Source: Magnetococcales bacterium
Lineage (GTDB): Bacteria > Pseudomonadota > Magnetococcia > Magnetococcales > JADFWU01
Direction: 5' to 3'
DNA length: 47,274 nucleotides
Assembly (NCBI GenBank): GCA_015234045.1
Contig: JADFWU010000022.1
Span: forward strand, 1-47,274
In this document: positions 14,867 through 47,268 of the stretch, piece by piece
Position numbering within the stretch: position 1 is the first letter of the stretch
Layout of the letters: each line of letters starts with the position of its first letter
Translations under genes and position numbers: made by a program
The notes under the pieces: generated by a model
What the model saw: only the letters and a program-made list of their open reading frames with translations
Databases searched by the model: none
Told to the model about the DNA's origin: nothing

Positions 14867-15007
14867 TGGGCATTCCAGACAGCTGACCATTGGAAGAAGA
14901 TTCAATTTTTATTGCCAAAGAGATACAGTAGCACCATTCCAGGACGGTTTTCCACAAACATACGTCCTTCGCCCGCCATCCGAAACACAACCCTGAAGGC
15001 TGAAATT

Positions 15008-16513
15008 ATGGGTCTTGATAAAAGTACCGTGCTGATGACTACAGTTCCGGCTGTAGTGGCATTGCTAACGCATAGTTTGGTTACTACCCTGTTTGAATCT
15101 TCGGGTTTGAAAAGTGCGGTGCTCTATGGTTTGATCGCGGGACTGAGTGTCGCACTGTTACTGGTAGTAAGTGCTGTTTTTCTCACACATCGACGAAATA
15201 GCACCAAAGCGGCTGATATTAACCAGGCGCTTCTTGCCATTGCTGACGGTGATTTGAACGGGCGGCTCTCCTGGGTTGGTGATTCTGGACCGATTGATGA
15301 AATTGGTGTGCATGTCAATCAGCTTGCCGAAATGCTTTCCCATACAGTGGAAGATACCGCCGTTCAAACAAGCCATGAAGCATCAATTAACAAAGAGGTT
15401 GCGGTTCTGCATGACGCTTTGGAACAAGCCGCTGAAAAGATCGGAAAATTGTCTGAAGATGTCTATCAGAAAAATAGTCGTCTGGGTGGTGAGATTCTGA
15501 ACATCAACGATCAGATGGAGCAGGTTTCCGGCAACATTGCCACGGTATCCGGTGCAGCGGATATGGTGCGGGGTAACATTGATTCCATTGTTGCTGAGGT
15601 CGGATCCGCCAATCAAAATATCAATACCATGGTTGCTGCTGCCGAGCAGGTTAGCGCGAATGTTGCAGAAGTTGGCAATAACCTTGGACAGGTGAATGGG
15701 TCCATTGATTCCGTGGTGGAGTCCATTGATCAAATGACATCCGGACTCAGTGATGTGCGTGCCCGTTGTAAAAGTGCCAATAAGGCTTCAGAACAAGCCA
15801 GTACGCATGCCCTTGAAGCTCAGGAGGTGATCACCCGTTTATCAAAATCGGCGGATGATATTGGTGTGGCGTTGAAGATGATCACCAATGTGGCGGATCA
15901 AACCAACATGTTGGCATTGAACGCAGCCATTGAGGCGGCGGGTGCTGGTGAGATGGGTAAAGGTTTTGGTGTGGTGGCCAATGAGGTGAAGGATTTGGCT
16001 GCCCAAAGTGCCAAAGCGGCCAAAAATATCGGTGATAAGATCAGTCAAATCTGTGGACATGCCAAAGCGGCCACCGGTGCGGCAGGTCAGATTTCAGATA
16101 TTATTGAGCGAATATTTCAGGCCAATGATGAAATTGCCCACTCTGTTGATGAACAAAACGCTTCCATTCAGGAGATTGGTACAGCCATGGATGATGTGCG
16201 CAGTGCCTCACAAAATGTGACGCACAATGCACGTGAGTTGGAATCAGCGGCCCAGGAAGTAGCCTCTTCAGCGGGTAGAAGTGCTGCCAGTATTGGGCAG
16301 ATTGCCACCTCATCTGACGAAGCCGTTCAGGCGGTTGGACATATGGCCATGATTGCCAATGATGCCGGTTCAGCCGCTATGGCCAGCCAGCTCGCCACCG
16401 AGGGTGCGCATGCAACTGCTGGTGATGTACGCGATGGTATTGGCGAGATTCTCAAGCTTACAAAAAATATGCATCGTACCGTTGAGCAGATTCATCAACA
16501 GGGAAAATCCTGA
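15008..16513 (+). CDS. Methyl-accepting chemotaxis protein without a periplasmic sensor
   Basis: This 501-residue protein has two membrane segments close together (about 8-28 and 36-58) separated by a short loop, so it lacks a periplasmic ligand domain. A HAMP-like stretch (about 72-115) and a long signalling coil follow, with the hairpin tip region NMLALNAAIEAAGAGEMGKGFGVVANEVKDLA. The usual Arg of EAARAGE is Gly. It may sense cytoplasmic or membrane-borne cues. ATG 15008 follows GAAGG; an open frame back to 14828 would add a region that overlaps yggS and has no homologous look. No cheA or cheW is nearby, so it must work with genes elsewhere. Confidence 0.87.
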   Translation: MGLDKSTVLMTTVPAVVALLTHSLVTTLFESSGLKSAVLYGLIAGLSVALLLVVSAVFLTHRRNSTKAADINQALLAIADGDLNGRLSWVGDSGPIDEIGVHVNQLAEMLSHTVEDTAVQTSHEASINKEVAVLHDALEQAAEKIGKLSEDVYQKNSRLGGEILNINDQMEQVSGNIATVSGAADMVRGNIDSIVAEVGSANQNINTMVAAAEQVSANVAEVGNNLGQVNGSIDSVVESIDQMTSGLSDVRARCKSANKASEQASTHALEAQEVITRLSKSADDIGVALKMITNVADQTNMLALNAAIEAAGAGEMGKGFGVVANEVKDLAAQSAKAAKNIGDKISQICGHAKAATGAAGQISDIIERIFQANDEIAHSVDEQNASIQEIGTAMDDVRSASQNVTHNARELESAAQEVASSAGRSAASIGQIATSSDEAVQAVGHMAMIANDAGSAAMASQLATEGAHATAGDVRDGIGEILKLTKNMHRTVEQIHQQGKS

Positions 16514-27837: not shown

Positions 27838-27854
27838 CAGGCGTTACGCAGTTG
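27838..27854 (+). repeat. Dispersed GGCGTTACGCAGTTG motif, copy 1
   Basis: The core CAGGCGTTACGCAGTTG recurs at 47142-47158 and, with one change, at 36588-36604. All copies are intergenic and next to gene ends or starts. Confidence 0.7.
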
Positions 27855-27980
27855 CAAGCGTTTTGGTGCTCAATTGGCAACAATGCTAACTCCTATAGTG
27901 AGGGATTGTGGAAAATTGTCAAATGCAAAATAGGCGATAGTGAACCATACGAGAATATTAGAATATTATGATGCATCATG

Positions 27981-28162: not shown

Positions 28163-31100
28163 TCAGACATTGGAGTCAGAAGAGGTGGTCACGGTTTCGA
28201 TTGCCGACAGAAGTTGAGCTTTGCGGATAGGTTTAGCCATATGCATGTCACATCCTGCTTCCAGGACACGTTGTTTATGTTCCTGCATGGCATCGGCGGT
28301 CAGGGCAATGATAGGGGTTGGTTTCTGGTTGGATGCTTTTTCCAGGGCACGGATGCGGCGCGTGGCTTCATAGCCATCCAGTATCGGCATCTGCATATCC
28401 ATCAATATTACGTCAAATGAGTTCTGCTCAAACAGTAGCAAAGCCTGCTCGCCATTGTTGGCCTCAATGACTCTATAATGATCACCTTTCAGAAAGGCTT
28501 TAGCCAGAAAACGATTATCAGGCGAATCGTCCACGAGGAGGATGTCCAGTGATACACTGTCCTCGACTAGTTGGGTGGTTGATTCGGACAGTGGTAGTGG
28601 TTCATCGCATGCGGTATCAGTAACAGCCGGAAGATGTGCGGTGAAAAAGAAACGACTGCCCGCGCCGAGTTTGCTTTCCAACCAAATCTGTCCATCCATG
28701 GCGTGAACGAGGCGTTGGGTGATGGATAGACCAAGTCCTGTACCACCAAAGTGACGTGCAGTATCATCCTCAGCCTGGATGAATGGTTTGAATATCTCAG
28801 CATGTTTTTCCGGTGCGATACCAATGCCAGTATCTACGATTTCAAACAGGATTTGATCGTCCTGATCGCTTTGCGATATGAATAGAGATACCTCTCCTTC
28901 ACTGGTAAATTTGATGGCATTGCCGATTAGATTAATTAAAACTTGACGCACTCTATCTGGATCTCCCACCACTTGAGCGGGCAAGATGTCGGAAAAAGTG
29001 CAGCTGAGTTTCAGCTTCTTATCTTCTGCCAGTAGGGCAAGAATATCGATTACGCTGGATGCTAATTCTGTCAGAGAAAAAGTGACTTGATTTAATCTGA
29101 ACCGTTTTGCCTCAATTTTAGATAGATCCAAAATATCGTTGATCAGGTTAAGCAGTGTTTCTCCCGCATTATGAGACACCTCAAGAAAGCGACGTTGATC
29201 AGGGAGTAATTCAGTCTCAAGCAGAAGCTCGCCCATGCCGATGATCGCATTCATTGGTGTGCGTATCTCATGGCTCATGGTAGCAAGAAAGTCACTTTTG
29301 GCTTGGTTGGCTGCTTCGGCAGCCAGTTTGGCTTCTTTGAGAGATTCCGCTTGGCTCCGTTCAATCATGGCGGCAAGAGTACGACTTACAGCGGTCAGAA
29401 AGGCATGGTCTTTTTCGCTTTCTCTAAATCCGCTATCCACATAGAGGCATAGCACACCCAACAGTGTGTCATTGGCCATGATGGGCACGCAGAAGTGGCC
29501 ATGATCATCCATATTTGCAATATGAATGTCGTGATCGGAATCCATGTGTGCTTTGAAAATGGTTTCACGTGTTGCAGCGCTTCGACCACACAGACAGACA
29601 CCGAAGGGCAAATTATTGCACTGTTGGTGGATTTGGTTGGATATGCGATGGTGTGCAACGATATGTAGGGATTCGCTTTCCAGATCAGCAAGAAAGATCA
29701 GGCCGCGATTCTGAATGCTCAACCAGGATGTGGCGAGCAGGGTTGTTAATGCCTTTTCCATCTGTTCTTTAAGAGAGATCGGTTGCAGAGCGATCCAGAG
29801 CAGGTCGCTGATCACTTTTTGAGACTCACGACTGTTGCGGGCAATCTCTTCGGCGCGTCCACGTTCGTTGACTTCGCGTTTAAGCCGAATATTGGTTTGA
29901 ATCAGTTCAGAGGTACGATCAGTAACCCGTTGTTCCAGTTCTTCATTGAGTTGATAGAGTGCATCTTCAACCTGTTTTCTTTGGGTGATATCCTCTTTGA
30001 TGGCCAGATAATGAGTGATCTCACCACTGCTACTGAAAATCGGGCCGATCCAGGTGTTCTCCCAAAAATCCGAGCCATCTTTTTTACGATTGAGGAGTTC
30101 ACCGCGCCAGATTCGGCCTTTGGAGATGGTGTTCCAAAGCTTATGATAGGTTTCTTCAGACGTGCTGTCTGTTCTCAGAATTCTTGGGTTTTGTCCCATC
30201 GCTTCTTCAGCGGTATATCCAGTCACTTCGCAAAATCTGGGATTGACGTACTGAATCGCACCATTTGTATCAGTAATCACTGTGGAAACAGGGCTTTGTT
30301 CAACAGCAAGTTGAAACTTGTTCAGCTCTTCTTCTGCCGACTTACGGTCGGTAATATCCTGCTGAATGGCAACAAAGTGAGTGATTCGGCCTTGGTTGTT
30401 GCGCACTGGTGTAATGGTGGAGTCTTGGACATAGAGTTCGCCATTCTTGCGGCGATTGACAATCTCACCATTCCACTCATGTCCAGAAAGAATGGCATCC
30501 CAGAGTGTTTTATAGAATTCATCGCTGTGCTGGCCGGATTTGAGAATCCGCAAATTACGGCCTTGGACCTCTTCCAGGGTATAGCCAGTCATACGTGTAA
30601 AAGCGGGATTGATCCATTCAAGATCACCATTGCCATCGGTAATAAATATCGCATTGGCAGCGGATGAGAGCGCGGTTGCATGAAGACGCAATTGATCTTC
30701 GGTTTTCTTGCGATCAGTGATGTCACGGATCACTGCTGAAAAGTAGTTGTTACCGTCCACTTGCCATGTGCCCAGAGAGATTTCAATGGGAAATTCATGG
30801 TCTTTTGAGTGCCGCGCTGTTAATTCAATGGTTTTGCCAATGGTTTGGCTTTTACCTTGAATTTGAAAACGTTGCAGGCCGTTTGCATGATCCTTCTGAA
30901 ACCGTTTTGGCATCAGGATGGTTAATGGCTTGCCAATAATATCGGCTTCGGAATAGCCAAACAGCGTTTGAGCGCCTTGATTCCAGAAAGTAACCAGGCC
31001 GTTATCATCCGCAGCAATGATGGCATCCACAGTGGATTCAGTGACCGAGCGAAAACGGGCCTCAGTGGATTTGCGGATCAACACCTCTCGGCGAAGCTCT

Positions 31101-31876
31101 TCAGTGCGTTGTTCTACCAACTTGTCCTGATCGTCTCTGGCGTTTTTAAGGGCCATCATCTGTTTGCGAATTCGGCCCAACAGGAAGAAACTCAAACTGG
31201 AGAGCAGACTCCAGGCAACCACGTGGATCACCTGCATTATGTTGGTTTGTTCTTGGATTGTTTGAGTAACGAAATCCGCAGGAAAGGTGACGCTGATCCC
31301 ACCACGAATATCGCCTTCCTTATAGCCTTGTCCAGAATGGCAGGCGAGACAGGCTTTTCGAGTCACCAGCGGTGCCATGTAGCGAAATACGGAGGTTGTG
31401 TCAGACAGTTGGATCAGATCAGAGTGCTCTTTTTTTGCGCCGCGCTCAAAGCTGCTTAACGCCATGAATTCCCAATTGTCCGGCACATTGAGCGGATTGA
31501 GTGGATTGGTGCTGGTGATGTGCAGAGACCAATCAGCCGTCTCTTTCAGAAGATCGGACAGTTGTCGGGTCATATAAGCGGGATTGATACGTGTCAATGC
31601 CAGGCCCGATGGTGTCTCAATTTCTCGTTCAGGGATATTAAGATAGGGATTAGGCTGACTGGCTTGCGAGATTGGCACATAAACACCACCATGACGGGCG
31701 TTCCACAGGCGCATGGTTTCAACCATTCGGAAAGTGAAGCGTGCGCGTTCCGTGGCAACGGTTATGGCATGTTGCTTGAGGGTGGCATTGTTCCACCAGT
31801 AAGAGAGCCCGACCAGTAGTGTCCAGCCCAGTACTGGCAGCAGCCATGCGCGTTTGTTCCGAAAGAACGGTCTCAT
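28163..31876 (-). CDS. Hybrid kinase with periplasmic c-haem sensor (DUF3365), three PAS domains and GAF
   Basis: This protein has 1237 residues. Membrane segments at about 11-28 and 215-234 flank a Tll0287/DUF3365-like periplasmic domain that contains the haem c motif CLACH (Cys176, Cys179, His180) in the usual [11 protein letters not shown] context. Three PAS domains follow (about 270-395, 396-520, 521-645), then a coiled coil, a GAF domain (about 690-850), HisKA with His869 ([22 protein letters not shown]), HATPase_c and a receiver ([18 protein letters not shown]). It is probably a redox, NO or similar haem-based sensor. The gene stands alone, with a terminator behind the next upstream gene and a long gap downstream. 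No strong ribosome binding site precedes the ATG. Confidence 0.93.
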
Positions 31877-33283: not shown

Positions 33284-34729
33284 ATGGATATCGCACTGTG
33301 GGTCCAGCTGGGGTTGTTTGCCGTCCTGCTTGGTTTTTCAGGATTTTTCTCCAGTTCGGAAACAGCATTTTTTTCTTTGGATAGTCGTCAACTGGATCGT
33401 CTGGAGAAATCCGGTTCCAAGCAGGTCGTACTGATTCGAAAACTGTTAAGTCGGCCAAGGCGATTGATTGTTACCATTCTGATCGGTAATGAGCTGGTCA
33501 ATGTGGCAGCCTCCAATATTTCTGCATCGCTGTTACTTCGTTTTGTAGCAGAAGAGGACATGTGGTGGGTTAATATTTCCATCATGTTGCCGCTTTTGCT
33601 TCTGTTGGGTGAAATCACGCCCAAGACGTTGGCTGTGCGAAATAATGTTGGTTTTTCTGTTTGGTTGTCGGGTCCGATTCACATGTTCGCTCGTATGATT
33701 ACACCAGTGCGTAATCTTGTACGTTTTGTGGCGGATCTGTTTATCACCATGATCGTTGGTCCGCGGCGTTCCCGAGGCAATATCATCACCGAAGATATGG
33801 TGCGTACACTGGCCAATGAAGCAGCAGATGCCGGTGAGCTGGATGCCATGGAGCGGCAGACCATTCACAATATTTTTGATTTTGGTAACCACACGGTTGA
33901 AGAGATAATGACCTCCAGCACACGCCTTGTTTGCTTGCCGTTGGATGCGCCGTTGGATCTGTTTTTAAGTACGTTTCGTGAAGCGCGTCTTCAGCGGGTT
34001 CCGGTTTATCACACCAATCCAGAGAATATTATCGGTTTTCTGCACTATCGTGATCTGCTTCGGCCTGATGTGAATACACTGTTTGAGAACAATCAGCTCG
34101 TTTCCATTTTACGTCAGCCCTATTTTATACCGAAAACCAAACCCTCTACAGATCTGTTCCATGATTTTCTGGTTAAGAAACGCTCCATTGCTCTGGTGTT
34201 GGATGAGCAGGGCGATATCATTGGCGTAGCGACCATGGAAGATCTGCTGACCTCTATTTTCGGTGATTTGGCTGTTGATCGGAGGGAAGCACCGGCAAAG
34301 CCAGCACAGCAGCTGGGCGATGGTTGCTACCGTTTGGAAGGGCGCATGCAAATTGCACGATTTAATCAGGAGGTGGGGTGTGATTTACCTCTTTCAGCTA
34401 AGACCATGGGCGGTCTGGTCATGCATAGTCATGGTGAACTGCCGGAAGTGGGCAGTAAGGTGATGGTTGACGATTTTGAACTGACGGTTCTGGAGATGTC
34501 TGGACGGTCAATCACACAGATTCAGGCTTGCTCCAAACATGCAGTCAATACCGAGCAGGAAATTAATCTGACCGAGTCAGCTGAACAGGTGAGTGACCCT
34601 ATAGAGAACGCCCAGGAAATTGACTCAAAAGAGAATGCCCAGGAAATTGACTCAAAAGAGAGCGCCCAGGAAATTGACTCGAAAGAGAACACACAGGAAA
34701 CGGATCAGATAGAGCAGGAGAAAGCGTGA
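33284..34729 (+). CDS. CNNM/CorC-type membrane protein (DUF21-CBS-CorC_HlyC), first copy
   Basis: This 481-residue protein has a DUF21/CNNM transmembrane domain (about 1-180, three to four segments, with the SSSETAFFSLD motif), two CBS domains (about 195-320, TMEDLLTSIFGD closing) and a CorC_HlyC domain (about 335-425). Relatives such as YfjD/YtfL/MpfA and CNNM act in Mg2+/Co2+ efflux; others are annotated as hemolysins. The last 50 residues are an acidic tail with four 9-residue repeats (ENAQEIDSK). It overlaps the second copy by one base (TGATG), so the two may act as a heteromer. Confidence 0.9.
   Translation: MDIALWVQLGLFAVLLGFSGFFSSSETAFFSLDSRQLDRLEKSGSKQVVLIRKLLSRPRRLIVTILIGNELVNVAASNISASLLLRFVAEEDMWWVNISIMLPLLLLLGEITPKTLAVRNNVGFSVWLSGPIHMFARMITPVRNLVRFVADLFITMIVGPRRSRGNIITEDMVRTLANEAADAGELDAMERQTIHNIFDFGNHTVEEIMTSSTRLVCLPLDAPLDLFLSTFREARLQRVPVYHTNPENIIGFLHYRDLLRPDVNTLFENNQLVSILRQPYFIPKTKPSTDLFHDFLVKKRSIALVLDEQGDIIGVATMEDLLTSIFGDLAVDRREAPAKPAQQLGDGCYRLEGRMQIARFNQEVGCDLPLSAKTMGGLVMHSHGELPEVGSKVMVDDFELTVLEMSGRSITQIQACSKHAVNTEQEINLTESAEQVSDPIENAQEIDSKENAQEIDSKESAQEIDSKENTQETDQIEQEKA
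34604..34708 (+). repeat. Four 27-bp repeats in the tail of the first CNNM gene
   Basis: Units start at 34604, 34631, 34658 and 34685 and encode ENAQEIDSK-type nonapeptides. The first three are almost identical; the fourth has drifted and is cut short. The repeat is in frame, so copy changes only alter tail length. Confidence 0.9.
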
Positions 34730-36081
34730 TGGAAACCGGAACAGTTGTTCTCTTGATGGCGGCTTGTTTGTGTATGGAAGCCTTTTTTTCTGGCTCAGAA
34801 ATTGGCGTAGTCAGTGCGGACCGTCTAAAGCTGAGGCATCAAGCCGCCAAAGGGTCGCGTGGGGCACGCATGGCGCTGGCAATGTTGCAAAAACCAGAGT
34901 GGTTGCTCTCCACGACTTTGGTCGGCACCAACATTGCCATTGTGACCAATGCCTCATTGGGCACAATGTTGGCTGTGCGTTTGCTGGGTGTGGAAAACAG
35001 CTGGATGGCCGTATTGGGACTGGTGCCCATTATCTGGATTTTCGGAGAGATCGTTCCTAAAAGTGTTTTTCAGCAACAGGCTGACTGGTTGACACCACGC
35101 ATCATCTATGTCCTTAAATTTGCTTCCTATCTTTTCTGGCCTATTTTGCTGATCTTTACCGGTGTGGTTAAAGGATTGACCATTCTCGTGGGCGGCCAAG
35201 GTGATGAGACACCGTTTACCCTCAAAGAAGAGATCGACATGATGTTGCAGATGCAAGGCGCTTCTGGTGACATCCATCCGGTGGAAAAAGGGATGATTCG
35301 GCGGATATTTCAGTTTGGCCAGGGTCGGGTGCGTGACATCATGGTACCGCTGGTGGATGTGGATGCCTTGGATGCGGAAATGACCTGCGGTCCTGCCATT
35401 GCGATTGCGGCTCGGCACAGCCATCGTCGATTGATGGTCTACTCCGGTCGTGTGGATAACATGATTGGTATGATCAATGCCATTGACCTGATCAATATGG
35501 ATGATAACACGCCGGTAAAACCTTTCATTAAGCCGATTCGGTTTGTACCGGGTTCTCAGCGTCTTGAGGATCTATTGGTTTCTTTCCGTGAAAATGGCGA
35601 TAACCTGGCCGTGGTGATTGGCGAGTTTGGCGGGTGTCATGGTGTGGTCACTCTACGGGATACCTTGGAACGGGTTGTTGGTGAAATTCAGGGTGAGTTT
35701 GATTCTGATAGTGGTGATAAGTCGGTAAGCTGGGTTCGTCAGGTGGGTGAACAGGACTTTTTGGTCAGTGGTCGCATTGACTTGGCAACCATTGAAGAAA
35801 AAATTGGCATTAGCTTGCCTGATGGTAACTATGAAACATTAGCGGGCTTCCTTTTGGAAAAAATGGAGCGCATACCTGCCGAAGATGAGAGTTATACCTG
35901 TGCCGGGGCATTGTTTACCGTTGAGAAGGCTACGCCCAAAGTCATACACGAGATCTTAATTCAGAAGCAAAGCAAAGATCAAAATGGAAGCAAAGATGAA
36001 AGCGGGAACGCTGGTGAAAACGCAGGCGAGAGTGCCAGTGAGAACGTAAGCGAGAGTGCAAACGTTAGTGAGAATAAATGA
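34729..36081 (+). CDS. CNNM/CorC-type membrane protein, second copy
   Basis: This 450-residue protein has the same layout: DUF21 membrane domain (about 1-175, SGSEIGVVSADRLKLRHQA), CBS pair (about 195-320, motif VVTLRDTLERVVGE) and CorC_HlyC domain (about 335-415). It is clearly a paralogue of the gene in front. Its tail is a different low-complexity run of Gly/Ser/Glu/Asn. ATG 34729 overlaps the previous stop, and its own TGA overlaps the next gene (ATGA), so three genes are translationally coupled. Paired CNNM genes of this kind are common in Deltaproteobacteria-like and related genomes and suggest a heteromeric transporter; that is inferred. Confidence 0.9.
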   Translation: METGTVVLLMAACLCMEAFFSGSEIGVVSADRLKLRHQAAKGSRGARMALAMLQKPEWLLSTTLVGTNIAIVTNASLGTMLAVRLLGVENSWMAVLGLVPIIWIFGEIVPKSVFQQQADWLTPRIIYVLKFASYLFWPILLIFTGVVKGLTILVGGQGDETPFTLKEEIDMMLQMQGASGDIHPVEKGMIRRIFQFGQGRVRDIMVPLVDVDALDAEMTCGPAIAIAARHSHRRLMVYSGRVDNMIGMINAIDLINMDDNTPVKPFIKPIRFVPGSQRLEDLLVSFRENGDNLAVVIGEFGGCHGVVTLRDTLERVVGEIQGEFDSDSGDKSVSWVRQVGEQDFLVSGRIDLATIEEKIGISLPDGNYETLAGFLLEKMERIPAEDESYTCAGALFTVEKATPKVIHEILIQKQSKDQNGSKDESGNAGENAGESASENVSESANVSENK

Positions 36082-36587: not shown

Positions 36588-36604
36588 AGGCGTTATGCAG
36601 TTGA
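36588..36604 (+). repeat. Dispersed GGCGTTATGCAGTTG motif, copy 2
   Basis: One base differs from the copies at 27838 and 47142. It lies in the short gap between the LOG-like gene and the signalling operon. Confidence 0.55.
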
Positions 36605-36713: not shown

Positions 36714-38573
36714 ATGGGTTTCAATACAAAGCTGATTTTAGGTGGTGCGCTTATATTCTTGGTCGTGCTTCTAAACGGTGTCCTCATGTACAACACAGTT
36801 CGGTCTCTGCTCTCTACGCAGCAGTGGGTGGATCACACTTGGCAGGTTATTGGCCGTGGTGAAAAACTGACTAAAATGTTGGTGGATATGGAGACCGGTG
36901 CACGCGGTTTTCTGATCGTTGGTAAAGAGTCATTTTTAGCCCCTTACTATTCCACTACAGAGAATCTGGACAAAGAGATACACGCCTTGCGTGCTCTGGT
37001 GAGTGATGACGTTGAACAAGTCAAACGCCTTAATAAAGTGGAACGACTGGCGCATGATTGGCGCGAAAATGTAGGCAGTGTACTCATCGAACAGCGCAGA
37101 AAAGTGACTTCGGGCGCAGTCAATGCCGAAACACTCCAAAATTTGGTAAAAGCCAGGACAGGTAAGGCAATATTTGATCGGATGCGAGACCGGATTGCGG
37201 CGCTTGGAAGCGCATTGCAGCGAAAAAAAATAGGTAAGGATTCAGAGTTGTTATTGCTCTCACTCTCCAAAGATATGGTTGATCAGGAGACAGGACAACG
37301 TGGATTTCTTATTACTGGCGATCAGCTCTTTTTGGAGCCGTTTGAACATGGACAGATTGCTTTTCAGAGCCATTTTGATCAATTGATGGGATTGATTAAG
37401 GCGCATCCAGAGCTGGTAACGTTACTCAATGAGGTTGGCGTGTTTGCCAAAGAGTGGCTGGATAAAACCGGTCGGCCTGAGATCATGGTCCGTGAGTTGA
37501 TGCGTGAGAAGAGTGACAGCATGGCACGAATTGTTACTATGGTGGAGCAGGAGGGCGGAAAGCAGAAAATGGATGCGTTGCGTAAGGTGTTGGGCGATTT
37601 CATCCAACATGAGAGAAAATTGATTGTCCAACGCCAGAAAGCCTCACAGTTACAGACGGGCCGAGCGGTTTTGATGGCACTGGTGGGCAATCTGATCGTT
37701 ATTGTGCTTGGTACGTTTGTTATCTCCATTATTGTTCGGTCCATCAATCGTCCTCTCAAAGCCATTACTCGGCAGATGGAGCGATTGGGTAAAGGTGAAT
37801 TTGTTCGGGAAGAAGTAAATTATCAGGCGCGTGATCTGCTTGGCAGAATGTTGTCTGCCTCTCATCAGGTGTTGGATAATATGGCGCGACTCAATCATCA
37901 GGTAGACGCTATTTCACGCGGTGATTACTCTCAGCAGGTGGCGGTATTGTCGGACAAGGATACGCTCGGCAGATCCATCAATCAGATGACCAGTGCCTTG
38001 GATGAAAATCGTGTTCTCAATCAGCAACAGAACTGGATCTCAACGGGTTTGCGCTCCCTTTCTCATGAGTTGTCAGGCAACCCGGAAGTTGTATCGCTGG
38101 CAGATCGTTCGCTCTCCTTTTTGACCCGCTATCTTGAGGCTGGCCAAGGGATATTCTATGCAATACTGGATGAAAAGAAACAGGGTGGTCTTACCCTGAC
38201 TGCCACATGCATGGTGCCCGAGCCCGATAAAAAACAGAAATATATTATGCCAGGAGAAGGGGCTGTCGGTCAGGTGCTGAGAGAAAAGGCCGCTATTCGA
38301 CTGACCAATATTCCACGCCAGGATCTGGCGATTACTACCGGCCTTATTGCTGATGCGCCGCTGAATACCTATACCTTTCCCTTGATCTATGAAGAGACGG
38401 TGTATGGTGTTGTTGAGTTGGCTTCTTTTAATCAATTTGAAGAGAATCATAAGGCGTTTCTTAATGAAGCCGCAGATTTAATCGCTGCCGGTCTGTTTGC
38501 TGCTCTGCAACAAGAGAAAATTCGTTTGCTGTTGGCTCACGCTGAAGCCAAGGATAAAGGTCTTGTATCATGA
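36714..38573 (+). CDS. CHASE3/HAMP/GAF sensor without a kinase domain
   Basis: This protein has 619 residues. A membrane segment (about 8-28), a helical extracytoplasmic domain with two CHASE3-like signature segments (ETGARGFLIVGKESFL and ETGQRGFLITGDQLFL), a second membrane segment (about 318-340), a HAMP plus a second HAMP-like repeat (about 342-440) and a GAF domain (about 455-605) follow in order. No HisKA, HATPase or output domain follows. From HAMP to GAF it is closely related to the 1400-residue kinase two genes downstream (ERLGKGE, AISRGDY, FLTRYLEAGQGIFY), so it may pair with it. AAGGATGG precedes the ATG. The end overlaps the next gene (ATGA). Confidence 0.88.
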   Translation: MGFNTKLILGGALIFLVVLLNGVLMYNTVRSLLSTQQWVDHTWQVIGRGEKLTKMLVDMETGARGFLIVGKESFLAPYYSTTENLDKEIHALRALVSDDVEQVKRLNKVERLAHDWRENVGSVLIEQRRKVTSGAVNAETLQNLVKARTGKAIFDRMRDRIAALGSALQRKKIGKDSELLLLSLSKDMVDQETGQRGFLITGDQLFLEPFEHGQIAFQSHFDQLMGLIKAHPELVTLLNEVGVFAKEWLDKTGRPEIMVRELMREKSDSMARIVTMVEQEGGKQKMDALRKVLGDFIQHERKLIVQRQKASQLQTGRAVLMALVGNLIVIVLGTFVISIIVRSINRPLKAITRQMERLGKGEFVREEVNYQARDLLGRMLSASHQVLDNMARLNHQVDAISRGDYSQQVAVLSDKDTLGRSINQMTSALDENRVLNQQQNWISTGLRSLSHELSGNPEVVSLADRSLSFLTRYLEAGQGIFYAILDEKKQGGLTLTATCMVPEPDKKQKYIMPGEGAVGQVLREKAAIRLTNIPRQDLAITTGLIADAPLNTYTFPLIYEETVYGVVELASFNQFEENHKAFLNEAADLIAAGLFAALQQEKIRLLLAHAEAKDKGLVS

Positions 38574-39532
38574 TGGGCTTGAACATATCTGAAGACCGCT
38601 TTCTCAGGTATTTCATGCTGTATTGTATTGCGGCCATTTTAATTCTTGGTGGTAGTGAGGCAGTCGAGGCATCAGGCAATCAAACCTCTTTCTCTGAAGT
38701 CTATGCGGAAGCCGTTTGGATTCATAAAGAGCTATCATTAATACAGCGCCATATGGGCGTTTCTGCGTTGGAAAATGTTGAACAGTTCAACGCAGTTCTC
38801 AAACCGCATCACGTCATGGCCAAGAGTTATCTTGTCTTGGTTAAATTGAATATCTTTCGCAGTAATAATGGGTTGCCACGCATTACGCCAAATGCGCTGG
38901 AACCTGTGCGTCGCTTGAATCCGGCTTTGGTTTATGGACAGACACAACGGATTCTCACCGAGTTAAGAATTATAAAAAGACATTTTGGTATAAACGGTCA
39001 AACGCCTAAACCAGATGTCGTGCCCGGTAAAAAACCGATTGACGTATTTAATCGGCTTCATGCCATATCTTTGGATTTGGATGCGTTGAACAATCAGCAG
39101 ATTGATCCGCCGTATGTGTTTGCCGAGGTGATGCGATTGTATGAAGATGTGTCCTATTTTCTGCGCCAGCTTGGTATCAAGGACAATACATTTCCGCCTG
39201 CGCGTCAGTCCAATATCATTCCTGGAGATTCATTCAAAGTCTCTTTTGGCGTTATGAAGGAAATACAGCGCATACAAAGAATACTTGGTGCTTCTCATAC
39301 CAGTTTTTCCGCTTTTGACAAGCAGCAGGATGTGGTTCCATCAGATGTGTTTAATATGGTCAGTATGTGTCTTGCAGAGTTTCAGATTGTCAAAGCCCAT
39401 ATGAAAATCACCAGGATAACCCCAGCAGCCCATTTATTAACAAATAACAAGACACCAGATGATATCTATCAGCTTCTTCGATGGATCCGCCGTAAGTTGC
39501 GTTTGGTTCAGGCCGATACTATTCAGGGATAG
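38570..39532 (+). CDS. Exported protein of eight 38-39-residue helical repeats (unknown family)
   Basis: This protein has 320 residues. A signal sequence or anchor (about 9-30) is followed by eight copies of a unit that begins V-F/Y, runs through a helix of the form VYxxxxxIxxELxxIkRHxGI and is joined by short loops, several with (D/N)(V/I)(V/I)P. Units start at residues 44, 82, 121, 159, 183, 221, 260 and 299, that is every 38-39 residues except for one short unit of 24. I know no family that fits. It starts inside the sensor gene's stop and ends six bases before the large kinase, so it is probably the periplasmic partner of one of the two membrane sensors. Confidence 0.8.
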   Translation: MMGLNISEDRFLRYFMLYCIAAILILGGSEAVEASGNQTSFSEVYAEAVWIHKELSLIQRHMGVSALENVEQFNAVLKPHHVMAKSYLVLVKLNIFRSNNGLPRITPNALEPVRRLNPALVYGQTQRILTELRIIKRHFGINGQTPKPDVVPGKKPIDVFNRLHAISLDLDALNNQQIDPPYVFAEVMRLYEDVSYFLRQLGIKDNTFPPARQSNIIPGDSFKVSFGVMKEIQRIQRILGASHTSFSAFDKQQDVVPSDVFNMVSMCLAEFQIVKAHMKITRITPAAHLLTNNKTPDDIYQLLRWIRRKLRLVQADTIQG

Positions 39533-39538
39533 GTTTTT

Positions 39539-42500
39539 ATGAAAATCCTACACCAATTGATGGATCGACTGACTAGAATCGGCATCCGCAGCCGATTCTA
39601 TCTGTCATTCTATCTGGTGGTTGTTCTATCCATCTCAGGTGTTAGTTACTATGGCTACCACACTGCCCATGATGTGTTGTATGGCAAGGCGCTGGCACTT
39701 GTGTCACAGAAGACCGAAAGATTATCCAAACAGATTGAGAATATTCTCTATGATGTGCCTGCTGATCTGATTTTTTTGAGCAGTGCATATGCGCTGCACC
39801 GTACCCTTTTCTGGCAAGATTTGGCGGTGGCCAATAAGGTGACCAGTTGGCGCACGCAGGTTCTTGAGACATTCGACTCTTTTTTGAAAGCCCGAACACA
39901 TTATGTATCTATACGGTTTTTTGATCAGAACGGCGATTCAACCATCGAATTGTTGAGTGATGACCATCTTCATTCAGCCAGTCACCGGGGAGAGGGGGTG
40001 TTAAGGATGGTGGACGCTAACGTGCGGCTGTCTGTCCAGTATTATCTTGAAGGAGACCGGCAAGACTATTTTGCTTTGCCTATGTCATTTAATACAAGAG
40101 ACGGCAAAATTGAAAAACCGTTTCTGCCTGTAGTCCGATTTGCTCAGCCGGTGATTGGTGAAAATGGTGTGGATTATGGCACCATCGAAGTGCGTGTAGA
40201 TGCTAAATATCTGTTTGAAACTTTGCAGAAAGCCGAGCAACAAGAGGATTGGGACTTCTATCTTGTTTCTGCTGACGGCAGTTATCTCTATCATGCCGAT
40301 GCACAAAAACAGTGGGGTGCTCTTCTCGGTCATGATGCCAGTCTCAGTCAGGATTTTCCCGCTTTGTTTGCACAGTTGGCAAATAATTCGACCGGGATAG
40401 TGGATATTGATGATCATGTGATGAGTTATAAGCGTATATCGCTCAAGCGCACGGATGAAAGTCATGTGTGGTATCTGATCAGTAGTGTGAATCAGACGGC
40501 GGTAATGGAATCCATTAACTTTTTCATTATTGTTTTTATTGGAATACTTGTTACGACATTGGCGATGGCACTATTGGTGAGTCGAGTCACTATTGATAGC
40601 GTGCTCAAGCCCATCAACGCCGTGACGCGTCAGTTGGAGCGTCTGGGAAAAGGAGAGATGGTTCAGGAGGTAATTCACTATTCAGGGCAGGATAGTATTG
40701 CTGAGATGCTCGTCTCAGCCAATCGACTCATGGATAACATGGCCAATACCATCACGCAGGTAGAATCCATTTCCAGAGGGGATTACAAACAACGCGTTGT
40801 ATTGTTGTCTCAAAAGGATCAGTTGGGCACGGCCATCAATACCATGAGTCAGATTTTGCAGGATTCACAGTCTGAAAATAGAGTGCAAAACTGGTTGAAT
40901 GAGGGCATTGGTCAGTTATCAAGGCAGTTGTCAGGTGATTTGTCATTGCAGGTATTGTCAGAGCGTGCGCTCTCCTTTGTGGCACGTTATCTGGAGGCTG
41001 GGCAGGGTGTGTTCTATGATATTCAACAGGATGACACGGGTATTGAACTAACGTTGGTCGCTTCGTATATGTTTACTGAACGGCATCGGATATCCAACCG
41101 GTTTCGTTTGGGGCAGGGTGTGATTGGTCAGGTAGCCCGTGAGAAAAAACCGATTTTGCTGAAAAATATTTCTAGGACTGAGCGGGAAATCACCACAGGT
41201 CTCGTGACATCAAAACCGCTGAATAGTATGACTCTGCCGTTGGTGTATCAGGAGGCGCTTCAGGGTGTGATGGAGTTGGTCTCTTTTATCCCATTTGACA
41301 AGAATCATCAGACTTTTCTTGACCAGGCTACGGATGTTATTGCTGTGGCTCTGTTTTCAGCACGTCAGCGTATGCAGGTGAAACAGTTATTGGATCTGGC
41401 AGAAGAGAATGCCAAAGTAGTGAAAGTGCAGAATCGCAAGTTGCAGGCCTCTAATGATCGAATGGAGATACAGCAGAGGCAACTCCAGGAAGCCAACAAC
41501 CAAATGGAGGAGCAGCAACAACAACTTCAGCAACAGACCGAAGAGCTTCAGCACTCCAATGCCCAGATGGAGGAGCAGCAACAACAGCTTCAGCAACAGA
41601 CCGAAGAGTTGCAACAGACCAATGCTCAGATGGAAGAGCAGCAACAGCAACTTCAGCAACAGACGGAAGAGTTGGAAAGCAAAAATGAGGCGCTTCGCAC
41701 ATCACGCGATGAGATAAACAGCCGTGCCAAACAGTTGGAAGAGGCCAACCAGTATAAGTCCGACTTTTTGGCCAATATGAGCCATGAACTTCGTACACCA
41801 CTGAATGCCATTATCGTTATCTCCAAAATGCTCTTCATGAATGAAGAAGGCAAACTGGATGAAGAAACCGTAAAACGGGCGCAAGTAGTGTTTGATTCTG
41901 GCAATGATCTATTGCGTTTGATCAATGATATTCTGGATCTGTCAAAGGTTGAAGCGGGCAGGGTTGATCTGCATTGGGAGTCATTCAGCAGTGTGGACGT
42001 TGCTGAAGAGCTGAATGCACTGTTTATCGAAAGCTTCCGGGAAAAGTCTTTACGCTTTGTGGTTGAGGATCAGTTCCAAGGGGTTTTGACCAGTGATCGA
42101 AACAAGCTCGTTCAGGTGCTGCGTAATCTGCTGGGTAATGCGCTGAAATTCACTCAAGAGGGGCAGGTTACTCTTAAATTTGAACGTAACGATGACCATA
42201 ACTGTGCGTGTCGGATTTTAGTCAGTGATACTGGCATAGGTATTCCGCAAGATAAACTGGCTCAGGTTTTTGAAGCGTTCCGACAGGTGGATGGTTCCAT
42301 CTCACGCCAGTTCGGCGGTACTGGTCTAGGGCTCTCTATCAGTCGGAAATTTGTTGATCTGCTGGGTGGTACACTCTCTGTGAGCAGTGTGGCGGGCGAA
42401 GGCAGCACCTTTACGGTCTGTTTGCCCCTTGAGATAGATAATGCCCATGTGGTTTCCAATTCGGTAACACGCATCAGTCAGCCACCAACACGGCAACAGA

Positions 42501-43741
42501 AGCCGCTCATCTCAGAGACGGAGCCTGAGTCAATTACGCTTTCAGAAGAGAATCTAAAACAGCCCGCTGGTGATGGGCCTGCGGTTTTGGTGATTGATGA
42601 TGACATCCATTTTCAGGACTCCATCGTCTTGATCAATCGTCAGTATGGTCATCGGGTTTTGTTGGCTGAGACCGGTAGACAAGGGTTGGCAATGGCGGCT
42701 AAACACCGGCCTCAAGGGATTATTCTGGATATGGGTTTGCCAGATATGGGTGGTGATCAGGTGTTGCGTACTCTGAAAACCGATCCCGATTTAAAGGATA
42801 TTCCCATCTATGTTATTTCAGCACAGGATCGTGATCCCACTCTGTTGGAAAATGGTGTAATGGGCGTACTGCAAAAACCGGTGACCGACGATGAAATCGT
42901 TGCAGCGGAAGTGGCCTTGTTGGGTGCTGTTAGTCAGCAGGTGTATAGATCCATTCTCATGGTTGAAGGTTTGACGCTGAAACAAGATCTGATCGAGAAT
43001 CGGATTGTTGAGACAGGTGGTCGGTTAACGGTGAGTCATTCAGCCAAGGAAGGTCTTGCCTTGGTGGAGAAGCAATCATTTGATCTGATTCTGGTTGATC
43101 ATGATCTGGATGATATGGATTGTGTGGTCTTTTGTGAACAGATCCGCGTACATCAACCGGATGTCGCCCTGATTATCTATGGTTCTGGTTCGTTTGGAGA
43201 GTCTCGCGCATCGGATCTGCGCCGCTTTACCGATAGTATTATTCAGCAAGCACCAAGCGCGACCCAAAGGCTGTTTGAGGATATTGATCGCTTCCTGTCT
43301 AAAACAGAGAGAGGCACGGCACAAGAGAGCGTGTCTTTGAGCGCAATAAGTTCTGATAAGCTTCTGGAACAACGCCGGATTATGATTGTTGATGATGATC
43401 CACGCAATCTGTTTGTGCTGACCGCTTCTCTGGAACAGCATGGTGCGGTTGTGATCACTGCATTAAATGGGCTCAAGGCATTGGCACTGTTGAAAAAAGA
43501 GTCGGTTGATCTGGTGTTTATGGATATCATGATGCCGGATATGAACGGCTATGAGGCCATTGAGCAGATTCGTGCAGATGCTGATCTAATGCATCTTCCG
43601 ATCATAGCTCTAACCGCTAAAGCCCTCAAAGAGGACCGACAGAAGTGTATGGATGCTGGTGCGGATGACTATCTGTCAAAGCCGGTGGACTATGAAGTGC
43701 TGGTCAACATGGCCAAAGCTTGGATTGAGAAGGGCGCATGA
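39539..43741 (+). CDS. Giant hybrid kinase: Cache-HAMP-GAF-coil-HisKA-HATPase-REC-REC-REC
   Basis: This protein has 1400 residues. Membrane segments at about 20-38 and 323-347 enclose a dCache-like domain; HAMP and a second HAMP-like repeat (about 350-450), GAF (about 465-620), a Gln/Glu-rich coil (about 625-745), HisKA with His749 (LANMSHELRTPLNAIIVISKML), HATPase_c ([27 protein letters not shown]) and three receivers follow. The first receiver (about 1015-1130) looks complete. The second (about 1140-1260) lacks the acidic pair (MVEGLTL) and the lysine and is probably a pseudo-receiver. The third (about 1277-1395) is canonical. It overlaps the CheB-CheR gene (ATGA), which suggests co-regulation by methylation. 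Confidence 0.93.
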   Translation: MKILHQLMDRLTRIGIRSRFYLSFYLVVVLSISGVSYYGYHTAHDVLYGKALALVSQKTERLSKQIENILYDVPADLIFLSSAYALHRTLFWQDLAVANKVTSWRTQVLETFDSFLKARTHYVSIRFFDQNGDSTIELLSDDHLHSASHRGEGVLRMVDANVRLSVQYYLEGDRQDYFALPMSFNTRDGKIEKPFLPVVRFAQPVIGENGVDYGTIEVRVDAKYLFETLQKAEQQEDWDFYLVSADGSYLYHADAQKQWGALLGHDASLSQDFPALFAQLANNSTGIVDIDDHVMSYKRISLKRTDESHVWYLISSVNQTAVMESINFFIIVFIGILVTTLAMALLVSRVTIDSVLKPINAVTRQLERLGKGEMVQEVIHYSGQDSIAEMLVSANRLMDNMANTITQVESISRGDYKQRVVLLSQKDQLGTAINTMSQILQDSQSENRVQNWLNEGIGQLSRQLSGDLSLQVLSERALSFVARYLEAGQGVFYDIQQDDTGIELTLVASYMFTERHRISNRFRLGQGVIGQVAREKKPILLKNISRTEREITTGLVTSKPLNSMTLPLVYQEALQGVMELVSFIPFDKNHQTFLDQATDVIAVALFSARQRMQVKQLLDLAEENAKVVKVQNRKLQASNDRMEIQQRQLQEANNQMEEQQQQLQQQTEELQHSNAQMEEQQQQLQQQTEELQQTNAQMEEQQQQLQQQTEELESKNEALRTSRDEINSRAKQLEEANQYKSDFLANMSHELRTPLNAIIVISKMLFMNEEGKLDEETVKRAQVVFDSGNDLLRLINDILDLSKVEAGRVDLHWESFSSVDVAEELNALFIESFREKSLRFVVEDQFQGVLTSDRNKLVQVLRNLLGNALKFTQEGQVTLKFERNDDHNCACRILVSDTGIGIPQDKLAQVFEAFRQVDGSISRQFGGTGLGLSISRKFVDLLGGTLSVSSVAGEGSTFTVCLPLEIDNAHVVSNSVTRISQPPTRQQKPLISETEPESITLSEENLKQPAGDGPAVLVIDDDIHFQDSIVLINRQYGHRVLLAETGRQGLAMAAKHRPQGIILDMGLPDMGGDQVLRTLKTDPDLKDIPIYVISAQDRDPTLLENGVMGVLQKPVTDDEIVAAEVALLGAVSQQVYRSILMVEGLTLKQDLIENRIVETGGRLTVSHSAKEGLALVEKQSFDLILVDHDLDDMDCVVFCEQIRVHQPDVALIIYGSGSFGESRASDLRRFTDSIIQQAPSATQRLFEDIDRFLSKTERGTAQESVSLSAISSDKLLEQRRIMIVDDDPRNLFVLTASLEQHGAVVITALNGLKALALLKKESVDLVFMDIMMPDMNGYEAIEQIRADADLMHLPIIALTAKALKEDRQKCMDAGADDYLSKPVDYEVLVNMAKAWIEKGA
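41504..41692 (+). repeat. Three 63-bp repeats encoding a Gln/Glu heptad coil
   Basis: Units at 41504, 41567 and 41630 each encode 21 residues (three heptads) of the form MEEQQQQLQQQTEELQxxNAQ, after a shorter related piece (MEIQQRQLQEANNQ). They occupy residues 656-718 of the kinase, between GAF and HisKA. Because the repeat is a whole number of heptads, copy changes keep the coil in register. Confidence 0.93.
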
Positions 43742-45423
43742 GTATCTCTGTTCATCAGGGTGCTGATAAAAAAAACATCATGGTGTTGGGCGATATTCGT
43801 GAACAGACAGAAACACTGCTTTTGAACATGCTGCGGGAGCCGAATGATCAAAAGGTCGAGGTATCATTCTTTGATGCCACAATGGTCAAGGCAAAGGTTG
43901 TTCAAGGGTTGCACCATTTTCTGAATCAGAATCCAGATAATCAGATTTCAGTTTATCAAAGCACATTGGCCCAATATCTCCATAAACTGGATATAGCCTG
44001 TCGTCATCGGTTTGCTGCCCACAACGCGATAGAAAAATCACCCTTTAATGCCATAGCGCTGGGCGGTTCGGCAGATAGTTTGGATAAAATTATTCACATT
44101 ATCCAAAATCTGCCAGTAAGCGCGCTTTCAGTGTTTATTGTCCAACATGTTATGGAGGATAACACCAATTATCTTGATGAACTACTGCGTACCCGCACTG
44201 ATTATACATTGTTGATGCCGTTCCATATGACGGCGATTGAGCCGAGTACGATCTATATCGCACCAGCCGGTTATCAGATGCGTGTTCATGACGGTTTGGT
44301 CTATCTCACGCGGGACCGAAAACGCAACTATGCTCGGCCTTCCATTGATATCTTGTTTGAATCGTTGGGTAGTGTCTATAAGGAACACTTGCTTGCGGTA
44401 TTGCTATGTGGATTTGGTCGGGATGGTGTGGACTCTTTGCACCATATCCGGCAACAGGGTGGTTGGGTTCTGGTAGAGAATGGTGAAGAGTGTGATGCCC
44501 CGGTGTTGGTGGAAGCGGCGATTGCAGAGAAGGCTTATGATCAAATCTGTACGGTGGAGGAGATCAGCGCTCACTGTGCTGCTGCAACGGGTCATGTGCT
44601 GGACAGTGCCTTGACCCAAACTTTTCTCAAAGCGATAGACAGTCGCTATGGCTATCAATTTCAACACTATGCGTCAGGCACTTTGGAACGGCGAATTAAA
44701 CGGTTGATGCATGCGTCCGGTTATGATGCGGATCAATTTTTTGCTTTTCAGCGTGATGTGTTGACTCAGCCTCGGCTTTACGAACAGTTGTTTCTCTCCT
44801 TTTCCATTGGTGTCACCCGGTTTTTTCGCCATCCGGAGCAGTTTTCCTGGTTGCGTTCCCATGTGTTGCCCTATCTGGAGAGTTTTCCTTATATTCGAAT
44901 CTGGGTTGCTGGTTGTGCCAGTGGAGAAGAGGCTTTTTCTTTGGCTATTCTTCTTGAAGAGGCAGGGTTGTTGGAAAAGTCCAGAATCTATGCTACTGAT
45001 ATCAATCCAATTCTCTTGCAGCATGCTACAAATGGTTTGTTTGGTCGTGACGGTTTGGAAACCTTTAGCGAAAACCATCAAAAGAGTGGCGGACGTGGCA
45101 CAGTACGCGACTCTATGGTCGATAATGGGCGATATTTAGCATTGAATTCTCGGTTTCAGGATAAAATTTTATGGTATCATCACTCGTTAGTCAGTGACGG
45201 CGCATTTAATGAATTCCAACTAATTATGTGTCGAAATGTGCTCATCTATTTCAATTCAGAATTGCAACGGAAGGTAATGAAACTGTTTGCACGCTCTCTT
45301 CATCCTCGTGGTTTCTTGATGTTAGGTGCTCAGGAAGGGATTCATCCTGGTGGTGGTCAAACACACTTCAAGGTGATGGAGAAGCAGTTGAAGTTCTTTC
45401 AATTGAAAGATGGTTACGCATAA
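43738..45423 (+). CDS. CheB-CheR fusion (methylesterase-methyltransferase)
   Basis: This protein has 561 residues. Residues 1-95 are a small domain that is not a receiver and looks faintly STAS-like. The CheB esterase domain (about 103-285) keeps its triad: Ser111 in LGGSADS, His137 in VQHV and Asp229 in GFGRDGVD. The CheR part (about 290-555) has the N-terminal helical domain ([16 protein letters not shown]), the SAM motif [15 protein letters not shown], Asp421 in YATDINP and [11 protein letters not shown]. CheR methylates glutamates of receptors; CheB removes the groups or deamidates glutamines. It lacks a regulatory receiver of its own; the neighbouring kinases could provide control. It starts inside the stop of the giant kinase and shares a base with the next start (TAATG). 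Confidence 0.93.
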
Positions 45424-47138
45424 TGACTCAATTATTCCGTATTCTGATTGTTGATGACAACGCAAACAACCGCTTTACGTTGAAAAGCGTGTTAACGCGG
45501 CTGGACAATTGTCAAACGCAGGAAGCGGCTTCAGGTGATGAGGCGCTTGTTGCGGTCATTGAACATCAGATTGATTTGATCCTGTTGGATATCCAGATGC
45601 CGGGTCTTGATGGTTTTGAGACTGCGCGTCATCTAAAGATGTCTGCCCGTACCCGTGATATTCCTATCATCTTTGTCACCGCAGTGTTCAAGGCGGAAGA
45701 GTTTATCCGCAAAGGTTACAAAGTTGGTGCGATAGACTACCTGACCAAGCCCATTGATGACAATCAATTGATTAATCGGATTCAGCTCTATCAGCGGTTG
45801 TTTCAGCGTGAAAGACATGTGCGTGACGCGCTGAACGCACTTCAGGAAAAAGAGCGCCAACTTCAGAAAATCAATCAAGAACTGGATCAGCGTGTCCAGC
45901 AACGCACACACTCTCTCAAGCTGAAAAATCAACATCTCGAACAGGAAATTCAGGAACGAAAACGTGTTGGCAATGCCCTCAAACATGCCATGAAAAAGGC
46001 TGAGGCAGCCAACAAGGCAAAAAGTGAATTCCTTGCCACCATGAGCCATGAAATCCGCACGCCCATGAATGTGGTCATCGGAATGAGTGATCTGTTGCTG
46101 GATAGCACGCTGGATGGTGAACAGAAACAGTTTGCTGAAGTGTTGCAAAATGCCGGGCGTTCTCTCCTTGACCTGATCAACGATATCCTTGATTTGTCAC
46201 GTATTGAAGCGGGACAAGTTGATCTTTCTCCTACACCGTTTCAGGCGGCTAAACTTGTTCAGCAGGTTGTGGAGATCCTTGAGATCAAAGCGGCCGAAAA
46301 TGGTATCCATTTGAGCTGTGAGATTGCCGAAGATGTGCCGGAAAGTGTGTATGGTGATAACAGCCGAATTCGCCAGATTTTGGTGAACCTTGTTGGTAAT
46401 GCGGTGAAGTTTACTGAACAGGGCAGTGTGACAATTCAGCTGAGCTATCATCATACTGACGTGCATCAATTGAATTTTGTCGTTAAAGATACCGGAATCG
46501 GCATTGATAAAAAGCATCTTGATTCTATTTTTAATATGTTTTCTCAAGCGGACTCCAGTGTTTCACGACGGTATGGTGGTTCTGGTCTTGGTTTGACCAT
46601 CTCCAGTCGTTTGGTTGGGTTGATGGGCGGTTCGATTCGTGTGGAGAGTACGCTTGGCAAAGGCAGTGCTTTTTATTTTAGTGTGCCGGTTCATTTGGCT
46701 GATCGTGTTGACATACCTGCTGAATCGCCAGAAACCAAGCCACGTTCCGGTGAGGCGGTTAAGGCGTTGCATATTCTTCTGGTCGAAGACAGCCCGGACA
46801 ATCAATTGTTGATCAAGACCTATTTGAAAAAAACACCACACACATTGGACATTGTTTCCAATGGTGTTGAAGCACTGAAAACGATGATTAATAACCATGA
46901 TACGTTGGATCTGGTATTGATGGATATTCAGATGCCAGTGATGGACGGTTATGCGGCCACGCGGGCTATTCGCAAATGGGAAAAGGATGAATCGCGTGAT
47001 TCTCTGCCCGTTCTGGCACTGACAGCCTTTGCTCTGGAAGAAGAGAAGCAGAAGTGTTTAGCGGTCGGATGCAACGAGCACATGACCAAACCGATTCGCA
47101 AGAAGATTCTTATGGATATGATCGCGCAGTTCTCATAA
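45423..47138 (+). CDS. Cytoplasmic hybrid kinase REC-HisKA-HATPase-REC
   Basis: This 571-residue protein starts at ATG 45423, which overlaps the CheB-CheR stop; the longer open frame from 45228 would lie entirely within CheR. The order is a receiver with Asp56 ([17 protein letters not shown]), a coiled coil (about 125-190), HisKA with His209 ([22 protein letters not shown]), HATPase_c ([26 protein letters not shown]) and a C-terminal receiver ([26 protein letters not shown]). It has no membrane segment. The N-terminal receiver probably accepts phosphate from the giant kinase, so this would be the second stage of the relay. No transcription factor or other classical output gene follows it inside the window. 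Confidence 0.93.
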
Positions 47139-47141
47139 TGT

Positions 47142-47268
47142 CAGGCGTTACGCAGTTGACTGCGTCAGAGGCCCAAAGGGCCGACTTCTACAGGGGACTG
47201 GGGACCGAAGGTCCCCAGCGGGTTTGGGCAGCGCCCAAATTAATGTAATGCGGGGCGTTTACGCCCCG
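47142..47268 (+). repeat. Array of five perfect hairpins after the signalling operon
   Basis: The array starts with the dispersed motif CAGGCGTTACGCAGTTG. Five self-complementary units follow one another: 47151-47164 (stem CGCAG, about 5 bp), 47170-47182 (GGCCC/GGGCC), 47198-47218 (CTGGGGACC, 9 bp, loop GAA), 47223-47239 (TTTGGGC, 7 bp, loop AGC) and 47251-47268 (CGGGGCG, 7 bp, loop TTTA). Arms differ between units, so it is not a simple tandem repeat. There is no T run. It may end or stabilise the operon mRNA, or be a chromosomal repeat of REP/BIME type. The window ends six bases beyond. Confidence 0.8.

Follow-up and report, generated by a model that had tools for sequence, protein, structure and literature searches.

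An exported helical-repeat protein, a membrane hybrid histidine kinase and a CheB-CheR protein in a conserved operon of a Magnetococcales bacterium: comparison with Wsp and LuxPQ systems and proposed role in adaptive sensing

The Wsp systems (WspA-F with WspR or WspH) combine a membrane receptor, a CheR/CheB-type pair encoded with the receptor and a kinase, and they end either in WspR, a REC-GGDEF protein (REC, receiver domain), or in WspH, in which a similar receiver is joined to a histidine kinase (PMC8552884). LuxP and TorT are periplasmic proteins that work with membrane hybrid kinases through the sensor domain of these kinases (PMC8534201), and atypical clusters of Campylobacterota bring hybrid kinases and REC-kinases together with stand-alone sensor genes and cyclic di-GMP (c-di-GMP) genes (PMC9239204). 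These systems are compared here with a five-gene operon (36714-47138, plus strand) of a Magnetococcales bacterium that encodes a sensor, an exported repeat protein, a membrane hybrid kinase, a CheB-CheR protein and a receiver-kinase. The window, i.e. the whole stretch of DNA that was analysed, is one entire contig of 47,274 nt (JADFWU010000022.1, assembly GCA_015234045.1) from a 3.65-Mb genome in 117 contigs. We consider it fairly probable that the operon encodes an adaptive sensory module that resembles Wsp but has no chemoreceptor, the place of the chemoreceptor and CheA being taken by a hybrid kinase with a periplasmic partner.

The operon comprises gene 1 (36714-38573, 619 amino acids), a kinase-less sensor with two CHASE3 domains, HAMP and GAF; gene 2 (38570-39532, 320 amino acids), called REPT hereafter, with a signal peptide and eight single-helix units; gene 3 (39539-43741, 1400 amino acids), a membrane hybrid histidine kinase with the architecture PF21623 sensor-HAMP-GAF-HisKA-HATPase-3 REC; gene 4 (43738-45423, 561 amino acids), a STAS-like domain-CheB-CheR protein; and gene 5 (45423-47138, 571 amino acids), a REC-HisKA-HATPase-REC protein whose start is an internal ATG within a longer mechanical open reading frame (ORF). 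Junctions are ATGA overlaps between genes 1 and 2 (38570-38573) and between genes 3 and 4 (43738-43741), a TAATG between genes 4 and 5 (45421-45425) and a 6-base gap between genes 2 and 3, which matches exactly the coordinates and junctions proposed beforehand by a sequence-only reading of the window; the five overlapping genes are confirmed as real and coded as described. The domain architectures given in that reading were recovered with Pfam (genes 1, 3, 4 and 5), except that the “three-receiver” kinase has two canonical receivers and a degenerate middle one. As four such junctions are present and the same order recurs in distant genomes, a chance arrangement is far from sufficient to account for the operon.

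The order REPT-sensor kinase-CheB-CheR-receiver regulator recurs in Magnetococcales, Campylobacterota, Gammaproteobacteria, Nitrospirota and a further family of the phylum, and this four-gene module is common to sulfur-oxidising, magnetic and related bacteria. REPT relatives were detected by genome scan in the four named lineages, and in 31 of the 398 sampled genomes of the phylum. The neighbourhood survey covered 56 relative REPT loci, among which 37 are complete kinase operons. REPT immediately precedes the sensor kinase of the same PF21623 type in 43 of the 56 loci, with gaps mostly below 20 bases or overlaps, and directly beside a methyl-accepting chemoreceptor (MCP) in 9, all of these with distant REPTs (the MCP neighbours being Pfam-confirmed at three loci and recognized by similarity at the rest); three of the remaining loci are cut by contig ends and one (L081) is an exception with no receptor adjoining. 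In 61 genomes, 18 sequences match the gene 3 sensor domain at more than 75 bits, and every one of them adjoins a REPT gene. REPT is the most constant part of the module, and the view that an exported repeat protein is unusual in such clusters has to be reversed. Alternatively, REPT could be an envelope protein in its own right, structural or a carrier, whose co-transcription with receptors reflects dosage or chance. This would be compatible with the lack of a known function or fold and with locus L081; we regard it as improbable given the directly adjacent membrane receptor in 52 of the 53 loci with usable flanks, across two output classes (kinase and MCP). REPT as a partner of the adjoining receptor is the reading retained here.

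Gene 1 is an optional extra, and the conserved core consists of the four other genes: a CHASE3 gene occupies the gene 1 slot in only 3 of the 56 loci (L034, L035 and L142), where it encodes 348 amino acids. The C-terminal half of gene 1 is similar to the TM2-HAMP-GAF portion of gene 3 (residues 299-615 against residues 309-626, 41% identity over 318 residues, blastp E 3e-76), and the coil and kinase that follow in gene 3 are absent from it.

Like the Wsp systems (PMC8552884), the module associates a membrane receptor, a CheR/CheB-type pair encoded with it and a kinase, and, across the operon and its relatives, the last-slot receiver shows the same swap between GGDEF (as in WspR) and a histidine kinase (as in WspH, and in the window). 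Unlike Wsp, the five genes hold no MCP (WspA), CheW or CheA (WspE) domain according to Pfam, a single hybrid kinase with its own sensor filling their role, and the module genes of relatives are likewise sensor kinase, CheB/CheR and receiver proteins; moreover, the CheB of the module has a STAS-like domain and no receiver, and a periplasmic repeat protein is added. Compared with the atypical hybrid-kinase clusters of Campylobacterota, the module differs by its repeat protein and its CheB-CheR module, neither of which is mentioned in the available text of that source (PMC9239204). No description of the present operon was found in the papers searched on CheB-CheR with hybrid kinases, which is a weak sign of absence, and for HmrABCX of Caulobacter, considered as a possible parallel, the passages found report no CheR/CheB module.

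According to the textbook view, chemoreceptors adapt through methylation, and in MCPs CheR methylates Glu while CheB deamidates Gln. The present operon, kept together in several phyla and with a CheR clade of its own, directly qualifies as a candidate for methylation-type adaptation acting on a sensor kinase. CheR or CheB genes belong to 27 of the 37 complete kinase operons (CheB and CheR fused in 23, separate in two, namely L031 of the source genome and L143, and CheR alone in two). Genes usually separate in other genomes had been named in the sequence-only reading as what would tell against a methylation module dedicated to the kinase, and the survey found them usually together, the methylation genes accompanying this hybrid kinase rather than chemotaxis genes. 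In the CheR-domain tree, all kinase-linked CheRs, which come from several phyla, cluster together (99/97), separately from five further CheRs of the source genome, the order among these five being unsure because of long branches. The source genome has nine CheRs, of which four are of the kinase type (on contigs C32, C73, C58 and C117); out of 65 kinases ranked by their likeness to the GAF-coil-kinase part of gene 3, those in positions 2, 3 and 5 are located on C117, C73 and C58, with kinase-type CheRs. That gene 4 serves the chemoreceptors of the cell and is merely located in a kinase operon would fit the many MCPs of this genome (42 matches, some of them fragments of one gene), the presence of one MCP in the window and the distant REPTs that adjoin MCPs. 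This is made unlikely by the position of the operon CheR in the multi-phylum kinase-linked clade, by the occurrence in the genome of distinct CheR genes located next to REC-CheB genes, an arrangement typical of chemotaxis systems, and by the recurrence of the kinase link even in L031 and L143, where CheR and CheB are two genes and their order is reversed. The methylation module probably serves the hybrid kinase, as the earlier reader held. On C58, a GAF-coil hybrid kinase lies about 8 kb from its likely CheR partner (L103, 7047-7880 and 16018-18999, both minus strand), and the opposite-strand genes between them include another kinase set.

Gene 4 carries a CheB methylesterase domain (44053-44571, residues 106-278, Pfam 1.1e-35) followed by a CheR methyltransferase region (44617-45387, residues 294-550, Pfam 1.6e-36), which includes the S-adenosylmethionine-binding domain. 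Its N-terminal domain (43738-44019, residues 1-94) has no Pfam model above cut-off and no REC match; the AlphaFold model (predicted local distance difference test, pLDDT, 86.8) has a beta-beta-alpha-beta-alpha-beta-alpha topology, the top solved structures in Foldseek are STAS proteins (best probability 1.00), and comparison with RsbV using VIA gave Z 12.2, with a root-mean-square deviation of 2.1 and 91 aligned. According to this predicted model, a STAS-like domain occupies the place of the receiver domain of a canonical CheB; the alignment shows no conserved phosphorylatable Ser/Thr in it after the FFDA/FYDA motif. S111, H137 and D229 of CheB, and R364, D421 and N500 of CheR, residues with established catalytic and S-adenosylmethionine-site roles in these enzymes, are invariant in 17 sequences, and both activities therefore appear to be under selection. 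CheB-CheR could also modify another protein of the operon, or act as a scaffold, and not be the adaptation enzyme of the kinase: gene 3 is without a consensus methylation site, the receiver that normally gates CheB is replaced by the STAS-like domain, and the CheB active-site motif is GGSADS, compared with GASTGG in the canonical enzyme. We hold this to be rather unlikely in view of the invariant CheB Ser/His/Asp and key CheR residues, and we keep gene 4 as the probable adaptation enzyme of the kinase. CheB-CheR-coil-PAS fusions, such as L092 in the source genome, resemble gene 4 in having CheB and CheR in one chain, and differ from it by a long coiled coil and further sequence past CheR, whereas gene 4 ends with CheR and has its STAS-like domain before CheB; the CheR of L092 falls outside the kinase-linked clade.

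Gene 3 is a hybrid histidine kinase on the basis of its periplasmic sensor domain (PF21623, 39839-40462, residues 101-308, Pfam E 8.9e-15), HisKA with an H-box and HATPase_c (41756-42433, Pfam), and a C-terminal REC with the conserved Asp. Receiver 1 (approximately 42554-42913, alignment) has the canonical residues, receiver 2 (approximately 42929-43303, alignment) is degenerate, with loss of the acidic pair and the Lys, and receiver 3 (43379-43714, Pfam and alignment) is canonical. Between the GAF domain (40940-41353, residues 468-605, Pfam) and the kinase lies a Gln/Glu-rich coiled coil (41381-41743, residues ~615-735) built from 21-residue repeats in which Glu-Glu and Gln-Gln pairs abound. 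Its composition would suit CheR and CheB, and it is a candidate target of methylation and deamidation. Several observations weigh against such adaptation of the kinase: a site scan found no MCP-type methylation consensus in genes 1 or 3, and no methylation site can be named; operons that have no CheR/CheB still encode the coil (L046, L079, L083 and L089); CheR/CheB are absent from 10 of the 37 complete operons; and 3 of the 10 genomes concerned, which are drafts, show only weak, chemotaxis-like CheR matches and no kinase-type CheR. The seven other genomes have a kinase-type CheR elsewhere. The methylation module is usual but dispensable, and adaptation is an add-on. That CheR would methylate the gene 3 kinase is an inference; the proposal that methylation serves hybrid kinases draws on the operon linkage, the separate CheR clade and the invariant catalytic residues. 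The coil, the most evident target, shows no MCP consensus and also occurs in several CheR-less operons. The coil was rejected as a diagnostic of methylation, since it persists without CheR/CheB and too few CheR-free cases were sampled. Operons without CheR/CheB, and those with the two genes split, offer natural controls.

No HPt domain was detected by Pfam in any of the five proteins, no search having been made for an unlinked HPt, which may exist, and these five genes thus do not appear to encode a strict His-Asp-His-Asp phosphorelay by themselves. The phosphorelay assigned to the operon earlier would not be a classical relay. In a far relative (L053), the protein that corresponds in position to gene 5 contains an Hpt. 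The window also contains a second hybrid kinase and REC-PAS-kinase-REC pair without CheB/CheR (21022-23538 and 23558-26392, both minus strand), whose kinase region shares 53% identity with the gene 3 kinase region, and a large PAS/GAF hybrid kinase (28163-31876, minus strand) with a CxxCH haem-binding motif in its N-terminal part.

REPT has no Pfam, NCBIfam or PADLOC family match and no match in a sequence search of PDB structures; the gene 3 sensor likewise gave no match in a sequence search of solved structures. The AlphaFold model of REPT, built with 16 relatives, is confident (pLDDT 89.7) and all-helical, with eight helices (41-62, 79-99, 118-138, 156-173, 180-200, 218-239, 257-277 and 296-311), one in each repeat unit of about 39 residues, the helix spacing being mostly 38-39 residues. 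Foldseek found no credible PDB match for this model (best E 1.0), and VIA gave Z up to 4.2 only, against unrelated helical proteins, a missing match being no proof of a new fold. REPT is predicted, from its signal peptide and modelled helical repeats, to be a periplasmic repeat protein. As in LuxPQ and TorT-TorS, a periplasmic protein would be paired with a membrane hybrid kinase. LuxP and TorT have periplasmic-binding-protein folds; REPT, in its predicted model, is an all-helix repeat that matched no PDB chain, and a missing match is still compatible with membership of a family. LuxPQ and TorT-TorS are not known to include methylation enzymes.

In the REPT tree, MCP-linked and kinase-linked members are split on one branch (97/99). 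In a mirror-tree comparison omitting two long-branch paralogues, REPT distances follow the sensor domain (partial r 0.67) better than the kinase domain of the same protein (0.05); with all rows, the values are 0.39 and 0.18, and the difference is within noise once the paralogues are kept. Co-evolution of REPT with the sensor domain is at this stage suggestive only. With REPT, the operon delineates a family of exported proteins, as yet uncharacterised, whose genes flag those of receptors of two classes. It is possible, but we put it forward only tentatively, that REPT founds a family of periplasmic receptor partners with a new helical-repeat fold, serving both chemoreceptors and kinases, and that the kinase operons represent a class of sensory adaptation where the histidine kinase itself is tuned by CheR/CheB methylation, with STAS control in place of receiver control. 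Doubled REPTs (615-632 amino acids, two repeat domains) occur in L052 (9993-11840), L053 (3632-5527) and L054 (9172-11070), with a GAF-less sensor kinase downstream and a terminal REC-GGDEF gene (Pfam-checked in L053), without CheR/CheB.

In the mechanism proposed, REPT would be the periplasmic partner of the hybrid kinase and, like LuxP with LuxQ, would either bind its sensor domain or deliver a ligand to this domain; the signal would then pass through HAMP, GAF and coil to the kinase. Phosphorylation by the kinase would have two targets, namely its C-terminal receiver and the dedicated receiver with which gene 5 begins. STAS-CheB-CheR would methylate and demethylate (or deamidate Gln) on the cytoplasmic helices of the kinase and thereby reset its sensitivity, with the STAS-like domain, and not a receiver and its phosphorylation, gating CheB. 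The constant receiver would directly drive a c-di-GMP enzyme in many relatives, while in the source genome it would drive a second kinase that probably acts on an unlinked regulator.

The first receiver of gene 5 (45441-45785, plus strand) is the constant receiver of the module, and is fused in relatives to GGDEF, PAS-HD-GYP-GGDEF, PAS-GGDEF-EAL or kinase modules. The output, given as unknown in the sequence-only reading, is not wholly so: the last slot is REC-HK-REC (HK, histidine kinase) in the window, where the operon has no c-di-GMP enzyme, and holds GGDEF, HD-GYP or EAL in relatives. In a sibling operon of the source genome (L104), REC-GGDEF-EAL accompanies CheR and a kinase of the GAF-coil type. 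Since relatives place c-di-GMP enzymes behind the same receiver, as in the WspR/WspH swap, c-di-GMP is a likely end output here, via an unlinked regulator, and the comparison ties the module to c-di-GMP output. The contig ends 136 bases past gene 5, so that absence of an output gene from the operon cannot be judged in this window; in a single-contig relative (L146, genome G010), the operon likewise ends with the REC-HK-REC gene, except for one small ORF 60 bases downstream.

Among other features of the window, an MCP gene (14828-16513) lies 20 kb from the operon, and two tandem genes for CNNM/CBS/CorC-type membrane proteins with a 4-base overlap, followed by a SLOG-family gene (Pfam), occupy 33284-36081. 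A 17-base repeat, AGGCGTTAYGCAGTTGA, is found in the same orientation on each side of the operon (36588-36604 and 47143-47159), with a third copy at 27839-27855. Its 16-base core has 51 copies in the genome at no more than one mismatch, compared with 0 for the reversed control, and the repeat is probably a REP-like intergenic element.

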